The translations under genes and the position numbers were made by a program. A DNA stretch of 49,430 nucleotides from the NCBI GenBank assembly GCA_012521675.1, contig JAAYLU010000004.1, forward strand, positions 1 to 49,430. The letters are read 5' to 3'. This DNA is from Synergistaceae bacterium (GTDB taxonomy: Bacteria > Synergistota > Synergistia > Synergistales > Aminobacteriaceae). Shown piece after piece: positions 16,569 through 21,403 of this stretch. Within the stretch, counting starts at the first letter, position 1; every line of letters starts with the position of its first letter. The notes under the pieces were generated by a model. That model was not told where the DNA came from and did no database searches. It saw only the letters and a list, made by a program, of their open reading frames with translations.

Positions 16569-18239
16569 ATGATGATGAACGGAGCGAAGATGGTCGTCGA
16601 GGCACTCCAGAAGGAGGGTGTCAAGTGCGTGTTCGGCATACCGGGAGGGTCGGTGATCCCCCTGTACGACGCCCTCTACGACGCGGCCTTCCCCCACATC
16701 CTGGTGCGGCACGAGCAGGCGGCGGCTCACGCCGCGGATGGATATGCCAGGGTATCCGGCAGGCCGGGGGTGTGCGTCTGCACCTCCGGGCCGGGCTTCA
16801 CGAACATACTCACGGGATTGGCCACGGCATTTCTTGACTCGGTGCCAATGGTCGCTATCGCGGGGCAGGTGTCCACGTCGCTCATCGGGGGGGACGCCTT
16901 CCAGGAGGTGGACTCCTTCGGCGCGAGCCTGCCGACCGTGAAGCACAGCATACTGGTCCGCTCTGCGGAGGAGATCCCGAGCGCGATCAAGGGGGCGTTC
17001 GAGCTGGCTCTCTCCGGCAGGCCAGGGCCGGTGCTGGTGGAGCTGCCGGTGGACACACAGAGGGCCGAGGGCGAGTTCGCCTGGCCGGAGGAGGAGCTCT
17101 TCTCGGGGCACCACCTGAAGCAGGCAGAGGACCTGTCGCGACTGGGCGATGCTGCGAGGCTCCTGAGGGGCGCGCAACGCCCCGTGATACTGGCGGGCGG
17201 CGGGGTGATAACCTCGGGCGCGGCGGGGCGGCTTCTGCTGCTGGCCGAGCGGGGGGACCTTCCGGTGGCGGTCACTCTGATGGGCAAGGGCGCCTTTCCC
17301 GACGATCACCCGCTGGCCCTGGGGATGGCCGGGATGCACGGGACGCCCGCGGCCAACACCGCTCTGGCGGAGGCGGACGTCGTGCTGGCGGTAGGCGCGA
17401 GGTTCAGCGACAGGACGACCGGCAAGGTTGCCGACTTCGCAAGCGGGGCCTCCGTCATCCACGTCGACATAGACCATGCGGAGATAGACAAGATCGTTAA
17501 CTGCGACGTCGCCCTGCTTGGGGATGCGGCCAGGGTGCTGCGGGCCCTCGCGGACTCCCTGCCGGAGATGGAGCACGGAGAGTGGACCGGCCGTCTGAGG
17601 GAACTGGCCGAGGAGATGCCCCTGAACAACCCGGAGGAGGGCTTCTCACCCGCGTCGGTCTTCGAGGCGGTGAGGCGTCGAGTGGACGAGCGGACGGTAG
17701 CCGTCACCGACGTCGGGCAGAACCAGATGTGGGCCGCGCTCCACTGGAGGGCGGGCGGGCCGAGGACCTTCCTCAGCTCCGGCGGCCTGGGGACGATGGG
17801 CTTCTCTCTCCCCGCCGCGATAGGGGCCTCGTTCGCTGCGGGAGAGGCGCCGACAGTATGCTTCGCTGGCGACGGAGGCTTCCTGATGACCTGCCAGGAG
17901 CTTGAGACCTGCGCCCGCTACAGGCTGCCCGTCAAGGTCATCCTGCTGAACAACGGCTGCCTGGGGATGGTGCGACAGTGGCAGGAGCTCTTCTGGGACG
18001 AGCGTTACTCGGCGACCACCCAGGCCCCAGTCTGCGACTTTGCCGCCATCTCCTCGGCCTTCGGAGTCCCGGCCCGTTCATGCGACGATCTCGGCGGGCT
18101 GGAGAGAGCGCTGGACTTCGCCTTCGACGTGCAGGGCCCGGCCTTGGTCGAGTGCCGCATCCCGCAGAATGAGCTCGTAATGCCGATGGTCCCGGCGGGA
18201 ACGGCACTGAAGGATTTCATGTACAGGGTGAGGGCGTAA
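16569..18239 (+). CDS. ilvB: Acetolactate synthase large (catalytic) subunit
   Basis: A 556-residue thiamine-diphosphate enzyme making acetolactate from two pyruvates. The catalytic Glu is in LVRHEQAAAHAADGYAR, the FAD/substrate region in GQVSTSLIGGDAFQEVD, and the TPP/Mg motif runs from GDGGFLM to LLNNGC near residue 455. Full length for the family. It closes the ilvN-ilvC-ilvB operon. Its last 23 bases recur almost exactly at 20967-20989 in front of eutS, part of a duplication described separately. Confidence 0.95.
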   Translation: MMMNGAKMVVEALQKEGVKCVFGIPGGSVIPLYDALYDAAFPHILVRHEQAAAHAADGYARVSGRPGVCVCTSGPGFTNILTGLATAFLDSVPMVAIAGQVSTSLIGGDAFQEVDSFGASLPTVKHSILVRSAEEIPSAIKGAFELALSGRPGPVLVELPVDTQRAEGEFAWPEEELFSGHHLKQAEDLSRLGDAARLLRGAQRPVILAGGGVITSGAAGRLLLLAERGDLPVAVTLMGKGAFPDDHPLALGMAGMHGTPAANTALAEADVVLAVGARFSDRTTGKVADFASGASVIHVDIDHAEIDKIVNCDVALLGDAARVLRALADSLPEMEHGEWTGRLRELAEEMPLNNPEEGFSPASVFEAVRRRVDERTVAVTDVGQNQMWAALHWRAGGPRTFLSSGGLGTMGFSLPAAIGASFAAGEAPTVCFAGDGGFLMTCQELETCARYRLPVKVILLNNGCLGMVRQWQELFWDERYSATTQAPVCDFAAISSAFGVPARSCDDLGGLERALDFAFDVQGPALVECRIPQNELVMPMVPAGTALKDFMYRVRA

Positions 18240-18245
18240 AAAACT

Positions 18246-18343
18246 CCAAGAGTACGTGCCGGGGAAACAGGCGACATCGGCGCACGTCACGTCATATTAT
18301 GCGACCCGCGCCCCGATCTGTGCTTGCCTATCGGCATGAAGGA
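18246..18343 (+). pseudogene. Truncated duplicate of eutS, directly abutting ilvB
   Basis: The stretch starting TCCAAGAGTACGTGCCGGGG aligns with the 5' part of eutS (from about 21087: TCCAGGAGTACGTGCCGGGA) at roughly 80-85% by eye. It carries a short insertion (CACGTCACGTC versus CACGTC) and a frame break, and it lacks the eutS start and the rest of the gene. It begins just after the ilvB stop. The copy is too decayed to code. Confidence 0.75.
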
Positions 18344-18347
18344 TCTC

Positions 18348-19127
18348 TCAAAGAGAGTGAGATCGGCGCTTTTGAATACGCGCCCGAACGACGAGAAGGA
18401 CAAGGGCGACTATCATCAAAAGCAGGGCGTAGGCCTGAGGCTGCGAGACCCCAAGCGCACCTGCCCGGCCGCGAAAATCGCCCCTGAAAAACTCCAGCGC
18501 GAACCGCGCCGCGCCGTACCCGGCGCAGTAGCCGATCAGCCTGAGCCTCTCGGGCAGCAGCGTCAGAAGCAGATAAAGCGCGAACAGCCAGGCGGCCTCC
18601 ATAAGCTGCACCGGCCACACCGGGACGCCGCCGTAGTGAAGCGCGGCGGGGCTGCCCGGGGGGAAGACCACCCCCCACCCCTCGGGTGACGGCCTGCCGT
18701 AGCAGCAGCCCGCCATGAAGCAGCCGATGCGTGTAAAAGCGTGAGCCAAGGCAAGATACGGGGCCAGCCTGTCCATAGTCTGAAGAACGGGGATGCTGAG
18801 GACACGAAACGCCATAACAAGAATAACCCCTCCGATGAACATGGCGGGCATCACAGAAAAGCCACTGGAAGGAATCCATACGCCCATATCAAGCGTCAGG
18901 AAGGCCCTTGCCCCGCGCCTGCAGAACACCCTCGTCCAGTGCGAGAGCAGAAACCCGCACCCAACCGCCAGCAACCCCATCACCAAGGAGGGCACGGCCC
19001 TGGCGTCGTGCCCGTACCTGAACCAGTAGAGCAGCGAAGCCAGGGCTATCCCTGTCCACACCAAAAGGCTGAACGACCGGAGGGGCACGCCCTCTCCTAT
19101 CGGCATCACGCAGAGAATCGGGCGCAT
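18348..19127 (-). CDS. Divergent prolipoprotein diacylglyceryl transferase (Lgt) homologue
   Basis: A 259-residue integral membrane protein with about six or seven hydrophobic segments. Lgt-type features are TRIGCFMAGCCYGRP (about 132-146), VWPVQLMEA and ARFALEFFRGDFRG with the conserved Arg and Glu. However, the HGG motif of canonical Lgt is missing and the usual Asn of the signature is Cys, so this belongs to the GCCYG-type branch. Lgt attaches diacylglycerol to a cysteine of lipoprotein precursors. It starts 22 bases after the stop of a Synergist-CTERM protein gene, in the same operon, which suggests it serves that protein. Whether a canonical lgt exists elsewhere is unknown. Confidence 0.75.
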   Translation of the reverse strand: MRPILCVMPIGEGVPLRSFSLLVWTGIALASLLYWFRYGHDARAVPSLVMGLLAVGCGFLLSHWTRVFCRRGARAFLTLDMGVWIPSSGFSVMPAMFIGGVILVMAFRVLSIPVLQTMDRLAPYLALAHAFTRIGCFMAGCCYGRPSPEGWGVVFPPGSPAALHYGGVPVWPVQLMEAAWLFALYLLLTLLPERLRLIGYCAGYGAARFALEFFRGDFRGRAGALGVSQPQAYALLLMIVALVLLVVRARIQKRRSHSL

Positions 19128-19149
19128 AACATGAGTATTATGAGTATTC

Positions 19150-20844
19150 CTATCTCCTCAGCAGTATCAGCAGAGGCAGCAACAGGACGACCACGGACGC
19201 GCCGGTTCGACCGGCGACAAACGAGCAACCACCGCCACCACCGCCTGCAGGCGGCCTTGGATCAGGGTCGGGTCCCGGGGTCGGCTCCGGCTCGAGTTCG
19301 GGTTCGAACGAATCCTCGACTGCGCCCGTATCTCTATTCACATTGTTTACCCTCATATTCGATAAATCGCCCACGAACAGCCTGCCGTCAGGGGAGACCG
19401 CCAAAGTCGACGGGATCAGCATCTTGCCCTCCGGGACCTGCGACGGTGCGTCTTCGATCGGCCCCTTCCAGCCATCCACCCATCCGTCGCCATCGCGTGT
19501 GGGCGATACGAAGCCCTCTGCGCGGACGAAATCCCCGCCATTCTCGACGTAACAGACTATCTCGTTCTTCCATCCGTCGCCTCTCGGGTTGTTGCGATAT
19601 GTCACATAGAGCCTCTCCCCCTCGGCACTGGTTTTTCCCGAGCCTGACGCGGCGGCCACCAGCAGATTCTCCGGTGTCTTTGTGCCTATTACCATCTGTG
19701 GATAACTTGCGACAAGCGAGGGGCTGCTGCCGGTGGAGATTTTCAGAACCCTGCCGCCCTCTGCAAGCTCTGCTACGTAAAAATGCCTTCCGTCCGGGGC
19801 CACCGCCACGCCTGACGGACGCTCCACACCCGCCAGCTTCAGCATGTCGTAGACTATCTTCTCTCGAACCTCCCCCGACGATTCAAAAAAGTACTGAAGC
19901 ACCAGATGATTGGTCTGCATAGAGGACGCGTTGCAGTCCAGGACAAACAGGCTTCCGTCGGCGGGGCTCCAAGCCAAGTCGCGCAGCTTGTTGAACTCCA
20001 TTGAACCGCCCCCCGGCTCGTCCAACTTCCTCAGGAATACGCCGTCGGTGTCGAAGGCCTGAATACGCGAGTTGTCCGCATCGCCCACGTAGACGACGCC
20101 CCTCTCACGGTCAACGGCTATCCCCCTGGGTTGTATGAACTCACCGTCACCACTTCCGGCGGCACCCCATTTTTTTATCAGATCTCCGCTCGGCGAGCGC
20201 TTCTGAATCTGAGGAGGCTTTGCCAGCACGGTGTAGCAGTTGCCCTGGCTGTCGAAATCCGTTCCCGCTACAGCGCTCATCGGTGTGACGGAGTCCGACG
20301 TCGCGCCGACCCCCGCAGCGGCGCTGTTTGGTTTTCCGTAGTTCATCTTCAGCTCTTCTCCGTCCCAAGATACGGAGACCCACACATGTTTCATGTCATC
20401 CTCGCCCGCGCCGGAGGGTCTCTCGAGGGGGAACACGGCCTTTGCCAAGACCTCGTTTCCGGAGACGACCCTTGCGGGCATCTCGTCCCCCCAACTGCCG
20501 GCCCTGACGGTCATATACGTCTGCGCCTCGCCGGGCCTCAACTCCGACCTTCGATATTCCGTATCAGATTGTATTGCCGCCAACGACCGGGAGGAGGAAA
20601 CATCGTCGTCCTCGTCATGATACAGCTCGATGATAACGTCGGCCCTTTCCTCGCTTTCTGTTGCTCCGACACTTTTAATGGTGTGTATTGAAGATGTGGA
20701 CACACAATAATCGGCAACGAAGAATAACCCCATTTCAAAGCAGCCTGCGCCTCCCAGAAAAACCACCGCACAGGCCAGGACACAAAGGATCCCAACCAAC
20801 CCCGCCAAACCCCTTCTTTGTGGCTTCGACTCGCTTTTCATCAT
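19150..20844 (-). CDS. NHL-repeat surface protein with a Synergist-CTERM-type sorting signal
   Basis: A 564-residue exported protein. Residues 12-35 form a signal segment ending GGAGCF, a poor lipobox. The middle (about 190-500) carries NHL-type propeller repeats, for example FIQPRGIAVDRERGVVYVGD. Then comes a Pro/Glu/Asp-rich linker (PELEPEPTPGPDPDPRPP). The end is Gly-rich with an invariant-looking Cys (GGGGGGCSF), a hydrophobic segment (VVVLLLPLLILL) and Arg-Arg. That tripartite tail matches the Synergist-CTERM pattern, a known Cys-containing sorting signal thought to be cleaved by Rce1-like proteases and anchored at the surface. It has its own promoter (20905-20932) and is followed by an Lgt-like gene. 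Ligand or role unknown. Confidence 0.8.
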   Translation of the reverse strand: MMKSESKPQRRGLAGLVGILCVLACAVVFLGGAGCFEMGLFFVADYCVSTSSIHTIKSVGATESEERADVIIELYHDEDDDVSSSRSLAAIQSDTEYRRSELRPGEAQTYMTVRAGSWGDEMPARVVSGNEVLAKAVFPLERPSGAGEDDMKHVWVSVSWDGEELKMNYGKPNSAAAGVGATSDSVTPMSAVAGTDFDSQGNCYTVLAKPPQIQKRSPSGDLIKKWGAAGSGDGEFIQPRGIAVDRERGVVYVGDADNSRIQAFDTDGVFLRKLDEPGGGSMEFNKLRDLAWSPADGSLFVLDCNASSMQTNHLVLQYFFESSGEVREKIVYDMLKLAGVERPSGVAVAPDGRHFYVAELAEGGRVLKISTGSSPSLVASYPQMVIGTKTPENLLVAAASGSGKTSAEGERLYVTYRNNPRGDGWKNEIVCYVENGGDFVRAEGFVSPTRDGDGWVDGWKGPIEDAPSQVPEGKMLIPSTLAVSPDGRLFVGDLSNMRVNNVNRDTGAVEDSFEPELEPEPTPGPDPDPRPPAGGGGGGCSFVAGRTGASVVVLLLPLLILLRR

Positions 20845-20966: not shown

Positions 20967-20989
20967 TTCATGTACAGGGCGAGGGCGTA
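20967..20989 (+). repeat. Duplicate of the ilvB 3' end
   Basis: TTCATGTACAGGGCGAGGGC and the following GTA repeat the last bases of ilvB (18217-18239) with a single difference. With the eutS fragment at 18246-18343 it marks the edges of the inserted Synergist-CTERM/Lgt cassette. Confidence 0.8.
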
Positions 20990-21058: not shown

Positions 21059-21403
21059 ATGACCGGCGAGGTCAAGGCCAGGGTGATCCAGGAGTACGTG
21101 CCGGGAAAACAGGTGACATTGGCGCACGTCATATGCAACCCGCGTCCCGAGCTGTGCTCGCTGATCGGCGTGGAGAGCTCCGGCGCGATAGGCATAATGA
21201 CGATCACCCCGGGCGAGGGGGCGATAATCGCCGCGGACATAGCGTCCAAGTCCGGCGACATAGCGATGGACTTCATCGACCGATTCACTGGGTGCGTGCT
21301 CTTCACCGGGGACGTGGCGGCGGTCGAGAGCTCGCTCGAAAGCGCGGTGAGGACCCTAGCCTCGGTTCTGGGGTTCGCCCCGGCACCACTGACCCGAACC
21401 TAG
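21059..21403 (+). CDS. eutS: Ethanolamine microcompartment shell protein EutS
   Basis: A 114-residue circularly permuted BMC-H protein of the EutS/PduU type: VIQEYVPGKQVTLAHVICNP at the N-terminus and SSGAIGIMTITPGEGAIIAAD in the core. It forms hexameric facets of the shell, with the N-terminal strand making a barrel that caps the pore. The start follows GAAGGGGGG. It is the first of two plus-strand EUT genes (eutS-eutP), and a decayed duplicate of its 5' part lies at 18246-18343. Confidence 0.92.
   Translation: MTGEVKARVIQEYVPGKQVTLAHVICNPRPELCSLIGVESSGAIGIMTITPGEGAIIAADIASKSGDIAMDFIDRFTGCVLFTGDVAAVESSLESAVRTLASVLGFAPAPLTRT

Follow-up and report, generated by a model that had tools for sequence, protein, structure and literature searches.

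As of 2025, the acyltransferase of the MYXO-CTERM system had not been identified, with Lgt as the leading candidate (PMC11980579). Most Gram-negative bacteria require Lgt for viability (PMC4728403), which makes the question difficult to address in them. In E. coli Lgt, Y26, H103, R143, N146, G154, and R239 are listed as essential residues (PMC13251419); H103 is required, and R143 and R239 have described roles (PMC4728403). A 2026 survey found that distant Lgts carry C or C/D in place of N146 and E151 (PMC13251419). The Synergistota appear to represent a natural experiment, as Lgt-family genes are sometimes absent from this phylum, usually jointly with Synerg-CTERM tails, the protease MrtS, and the type II secretion system (T2SS) protein GspG.

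We analyzed a window of 49,430 nucleotides on contig C4 of a Synergistaceae assembly (2,213,318 bases, 121 contigs, 97.63% complete). A first-pass annotation of this DNA had reported a surface protein gene followed 22 bases later by an Lgt homolog, and this pair is real: both open reading frames lie on the minus strand, the gene of an NHL beta-propeller protein preceding an Lgt-family gene, here called lgtX (Table 1). A terminator-like site was looked for in the 22-base gap, and none was found. The pair is flanked by ilvB (plus strand, ending at 18239) on one side and by eutS (plus strand, BMC domain) on the other.

Table 1. Features of the propeller/lgtX locus (positions in the window)
Feature	Position	Strand	Basis or remark
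ilvB 3' end	18216..18238	+	Repeated at 20967-20989 (96%), on the far side of the pair
Copy of internal 5' segment of eutS (relic), 45 bp, directly downstream of lgtX	18245..18289	+	91% identical to 21087-21131
LgtX, Lgt-family membrane protein, 259 aa	18348..19127	-	PF01790, E 3.6e-27
RFALEFFR, LgtX equivalents of E. coli R239, E243, R246, all kept	18483..18506	-	Alignment
RIGCFMAGCCYG, LgtX equivalent of E. coli signature R143..G154	18696..18731	-	Alignment to E. coli Lgt
22-base intergenic gap, propeller stop codon to LgtX ATG	19128..19149	-	ORF coordinates
NHL beta-propeller surface protein, 564 aa, putative Synerg-CTERM substrate	19150..20844	-	ORF; NHL repeats, E 9.4e-18
Synerg-CTERM-type tail GGGGGGC(540)SFVAGRTGASVVVLLLPLLILLRR	19153..19245	-	Own-clade profile, 26.5 bits, E 4.3e-7
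Propeller N-terminal signal region, lipobox-like FLGGAGC35 and VLAC25	20740..20844	-	VLAC, lipobox scan; GAGC, by eye
Second copy of the eutS segment, within intact eutS (21059-21403)	21087..21131	+	Repeat search, alignment

The propeller protein ends in GGGGGGCSFVAGRTGASVVVLLLPLLILLRR, and Cys540 of its tail is encoded at 19225-19227. This C terminus scored 9.2 to 10 bits with TIGR04564, below the cut-off of 22.5. We also built an own-clade profile from 16 other Synergistota tails, leaving out the propeller tail, and searched it against 1668 C termini from the window, E. coli, and five Synergistota samples. The propeller tail ranked fourth, behind three tails included in the profile, and its 26.5 bits compare with 10.3 bits for the best non-CTERM sequence. 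It resembles the tails of its clade in having a Gly run, a Cys, a hydrophobic stretch, and a basic end. The tail that had been called Synergist-CTERM is thus backed by the own-clade profile but stays under the cut-off of the NCBI model.

LgtX belongs to the Lgt family, scoring 95.7 bits against PF01790 (cut-off, 24.9), but does not reach the TIGR00544 equivalog (54.3 bits; cut-off, 118.9); with NF000778 it scored 111.5 bits (cut-off, 334). In an alignment to E. coli Lgt, R143 and G154 of the signature are kept, as is the equivalent of Y235, while N146, E151, and L152 are each replaced by cysteine and the H103-G104 position reads M-P. At Y26, H103, R143, N146, G154, and R239, LgtX therefore has F, M, R, C, G, and R and lacks the complete set of residues essential in E. 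coli. A PDB sequence search with LgtX returned no match, and its AlphaFold model (mean pLDDT, 49.4) was left unused.

That LgtX might be the only Lgt of its genome, which would have spoken against the initial reading, is out, as contig C7 carries another one. The C7 Lgt scored 118.1 bits against TIGR00544, whose cut-off is 118.9, and matched E. coli Lgt (5azb) in a PDB sequence search. It also lacks the HGG motif and reads RWGCFLNGCC. Indeed, when 37 main Synergistales Lgts were aligned with E. coli Lgt, R143, C146, C151, C152, R239, and R246 were found in all 37, H103 was replaced in every one, and E243 was changed to D in 36. R143, R239, and R246 are invariant across these proteins and LgtX. 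The cysteine substitutions and the loss of H103 are partly present in Firmicutes paralogs too. The GCCYG motif and the missing HGG motif noted in LgtX are thus present, but they do not set it apart, because the main Synergistales Lgts aligned share its cysteine substitutions and also lack HGG, and we rejected them as a mark of CTERM-specific enzymes. The same genome encodes eight tails over the TIGR04564 cut-off, MrtS on contig C22 (NF040589, 227.7 bits; cut-off, 130), LspA on C27, and GspG on C32. Two of its frames, one of 131 aa (L061, contig C65) and one of 857 aa (L064, contig C45), have a near-identical C-terminal stretch ending in a CTERM tail.

Whole-genome searches of 188 Synergistota genomes detected Lgt in 144, Synerg-CTERM tails in 140, GspG in 132, MrtS in 126 (GspG and MrtS over cut-off), and LspA in 111. 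Five f11/f12 genomes with canonical, high-scoring Lgts (237 to 256 bits) were set aside, leaving 183 for comparison by statistics that take no account of relatedness among genomes. Lgt and CTERM tails were both present in 132 and both absent from 37, with seven genomes having Lgt only and seven CTERM only (phi, 0.79). The corresponding figures (both, Lgt only, partner only, neither) were 103, 36, 3, and 41 for LspA (phi, 0.58) and 121, 18, 8, and 36 for GspG (phi, 0.65). The distributions of MrtS (NF040589) and GspG relative to Lgt resemble that of CTERM; Lgt-family genes follow Synerg-CTERM and MrtS more tightly than they follow LspA. CTERM tails were present in 30 of the 36 genomes that have Lgt without LspA. 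Some lineages retain Lgt, CTERM, and MrtS with no detectable LspA, so that they may make few N-terminal lipoproteins or none. Among the 116 of all genomes with completeness of ≥90% and contamination of ≤5%, 85 had both Lgt and CTERM, 7 Lgt only (two of canonical type), 1 CTERM only, and 23 neither. Six of the seven CTERM-only genomes are 55 to 86% complete; the other, G051 (91%), carries CTERM tails but neither Lgt nor MrtS. Joint absence was seen in f2, f9, f10, parts of f3 and f4, one f1 genome, and one f7 genome. Lgt was present in genus g6 (G009, G027, and G036), where CTERM, MrtS, GspG, and LspA were not detected, so that Lgt can persist without the pathway. The g6 lgt genes (L091, L092, and L090, respectively) lie in a jag-lgt-htrA setting. 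In G064, an f11 genome with a canonical-type Lgt, a protein at L193:13878-14675 has the tail PSGGGGGCSSGEGSIAGLLLLLPLALTFLRRK, and the genome gave a weak MrtS match (93.8 bits); the system may therefore extend beyond the Synergistales.

We also found lgt physically linked to mrtS and T2SS genes. Three g26 genomes have an lgt-mrtS tandem alongside a divergent subtilase gene whose product bears a Synerg-CTERM tail, and in G059 the two reading frames, as called, share 4 bases. In two g45 genomes (G149 and G158), lgt adjoins gspG and diverges from mrtS; gspE and gspF lie upstream in G149, and gspG also adjoins lgt in G153. A stretch of about 13.5 kb in G138 (g40) holds lgt, then a T2SS run (secretin, GspE, GspF, and GspG), and then mrtS, and in G108 about 1.8 kb separates mrtS from lgt. 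The majority of the loci opened in f1, the family of our genome, show the order yidC-jag-lgt-htrA, and lgt is not beside mrtS. A protein of 357 to 380 aa is encoded directly downstream of mrtS in our genome (G000, L094:8830-9912), G108 (L089:6645-7787), and G034 (L100:5660-6733); NCBIfam searches with the first two gave no match. Between this gene and lgt, G108 encodes a small membrane protein, CcdA/DsbD-like by eye (L089:7790-8497), for which Pfam gave no match.

These genes, the tail, their co-occurrence and linkage, and the conserved phosphatidylglycerol-handling arginines underlie a proposal in which we infer the lipid transfer, the order of the steps, and the substrate. Sec would export a Synerg-CTERM precursor, whose C-terminal hydrophobic stretch would keep it in the inner membrane. 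There, an Lgt-family enzyme of the Cys type would transfer diacylglycerol from phosphatidylglycerol to the tail cysteine, the glutamic protease MrtS would cut off the hydrophobic/Arg tail, and the T2SS would bring the lipid-anchored protein to the surface. We consider an Lgt-family acyltransferase a likely partner in the Synerg-CTERM/MrtS pathway, the proposal as a whole standing at about even chances. The lack of a clear N-terminal lipobox excess in the Synergistota samples and the MYXO-CTERM precedent (PMC11980579) also speak for it. Against it stand the g6 genomes, G051, the own-family loci in which lgt is apart from mrtS, the grouping of LgtX with a Firmicutes paralog, the loss throughout of H103, an essential residue in E. 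coli, and the lipobox-like cysteines of the propeller N terminus. With the same balanced confidence, we suggest that an Lgt-family enzyme of the RWGCFLNGCC type, having lost HGG, was recruited in the Synergistales for C-terminal lipidation and would catalyze the opening step of the Synerg-CTERM/MrtS/T2SS surface pathway. The earlier idea of tail-cysteine lipidation by an Lgt-type enzyme before an Rce1-like cut is strengthened by the co-occurrence, the mrtS/T2SS linkage, and the LspA-less lineages, but this evidence concerns the C7 type. The C7 Lgt is most likely, with somewhat better than even confidence, the housekeeping enzyme for Synerg-CTERM lipidation in this genome; the partner role is best supported for this type of enzyme and only plausible for LgtX.

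LgtX probably has a different history. In a 44-row tree it paired with a Lachnospira Lgt (support, 98/95). The main Synergistales Lgts, 37 in all, fell together on one side of a branch (100/99). A tree constrained to place LgtX in the Synergistales clade was 9.2 log units worse (p-AU, 0.067), so that this placement is not firmly rejected; by the same test, origin as a recent duplicate of the C7 Lgt is not favored. Apart from our genome, only G008 and G052 had a second PF01790 match among the Synergistota genomes searched, and a scan of contigs for relatives, using poor patterns, returned only the G008 paralog. Searches of the other Synergistota genomes did not recover the propeller/lgtX pair, and none of the 187 other genomes had a propeller homolog at E ≤ 1e-15. 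On the downstream side of lgtX, the similarity of the eutS relic extends to about 18341 (alignment, blastn), and two congeners have eutS with unrelated upstream DNA and a single copy of the segment each. The duplicated ilvB/eutS flanks would fit a single insertion carrying both genes. LgtX, an extra Cys-type Lgt from a different subfamily than the C7 enzyme, was probably acquired.

The propeller gene and lgtX would form a small two-gene unit in which, judged by gene position and the family arginines kept in LgtX, the enzyme most likely acts on its neighbor. Action at the C-terminal cysteine is a tentative reading, and action at an N-terminal cysteine of the propeller protein is clearly less probable. 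Cys25 and Cys35 could be alternative acceptors for an Lgt, with an imperfect lipobox fit that itself argues against N-terminal action. More broadly, LgtX might be an ordinary second Lgt acting on N-terminal cysteines, perhaps one of these two, with its CTERM neighbor present by chance or simple co-acquisition. We regard this as rather doubtful, even though it survives best among the alternatives: the examined neighbors of the Lachnospira and Paenibacillus paralogs with which LgtX groups are non-CTERM by annotation, the genome has LspA, the propeller N terminus has its lipobox-like sites, and the GCCYG paralog of G008 adjoins a different, HD-type gene (read by eye). Against it, we estimate that a given neighbor bears a Synerg-CTERM tail in about 1% of cases, and the Synergistota samples were without a clear excess of N-terminal lipoboxes. 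In a lipobox scan, the normalized Cys rate was 2.92 in E. coli, versus 0.40 for other residues, and 0 to 0.80 in the Synergistota samples, versus 0.08 to 0.47. As the scan is crude and the samples are small (0.1 to 0.4 Mb), what it shows is the absence of an E. coli-like excess. The G130 sample was given little weight because it yielded few ORFs and signal peptides, a shortage that N bases could not explain, as it had none.

Alternatively, the C7 Lgt may perform all Synerg-CTERM lipidation, LgtX being a passenger or having another role. A single PF01790 gene suffices in nearly all CTERM-bearing Synergistota, and the restriction of the pair to one of the genomes searched, with duplicated flanks as for a recent insertion, points the same way. 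Nevertheless, we consider this unlikely: the LgtX frame is intact, it has kept the equivalents of R143, G154, Y235, R239, E243, and R246, and it lies close behind a CTERM gene. A last rival holds that the tail cysteine stays unlipidated, with MrtS cutting unmodified tails and Lgt tracking CTERM through a common envelope lifestyle; in its favor, we know of no such tail cysteine on which a lipid has been demonstrated. We find it improbable, since lgt and mrtS are adjacent in differently arranged loci of several genera and MrtX cleavage requires the motif cysteines (PMC11980579), although Lgt-less genomes are mostly also without LspA and GspG over cut-off and MrtX acted on TraA in E. coli without the cognate Myxococcus acyltransferase, a result for which its authors favor host Lgt (PMC11980579).

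If lipidation of the tail cysteine by an Lgt-family enzyme is correct, the Synergistales protein would supply the acyltransferase missing from the myxosortase model. A specific candidate enzyme, residues, and genomes are now named for testing C-terminal lipidation. The route would not be wholly new, as had been suggested, because an Lgt-like acyltransferase has already been proposed for MYXO-CTERM (PMC11980579).

Compared with Lgt as described by PF01790 and TIGR00544, LgtX is similar in length, exceeds the PF01790 cut-off, and has the equivalents of R143, G154, R239, and R246, but it differs in the three cysteine substitutions at N146, E151, and L152, in the absence of HGG, and in its score below the equivalog cut-off. 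With the Synerg-CTERM/MrtS models (TIGR04564 and NF040589), the genome agrees in having MrtS and eight tails over cut-off; the propeller tail falls below it, and neither model names a lipid-transfer enzyme. The MYXO-CTERM/MrtX system shares the Cys motif, the hydrophobic stretch, the Arg end, a CPBP glutamic protease, and a T2SS. Unlike that system, the Synergistota have an Lgt-family gene whose presence covaries with that of the tails and which shows linkage to mrtS.
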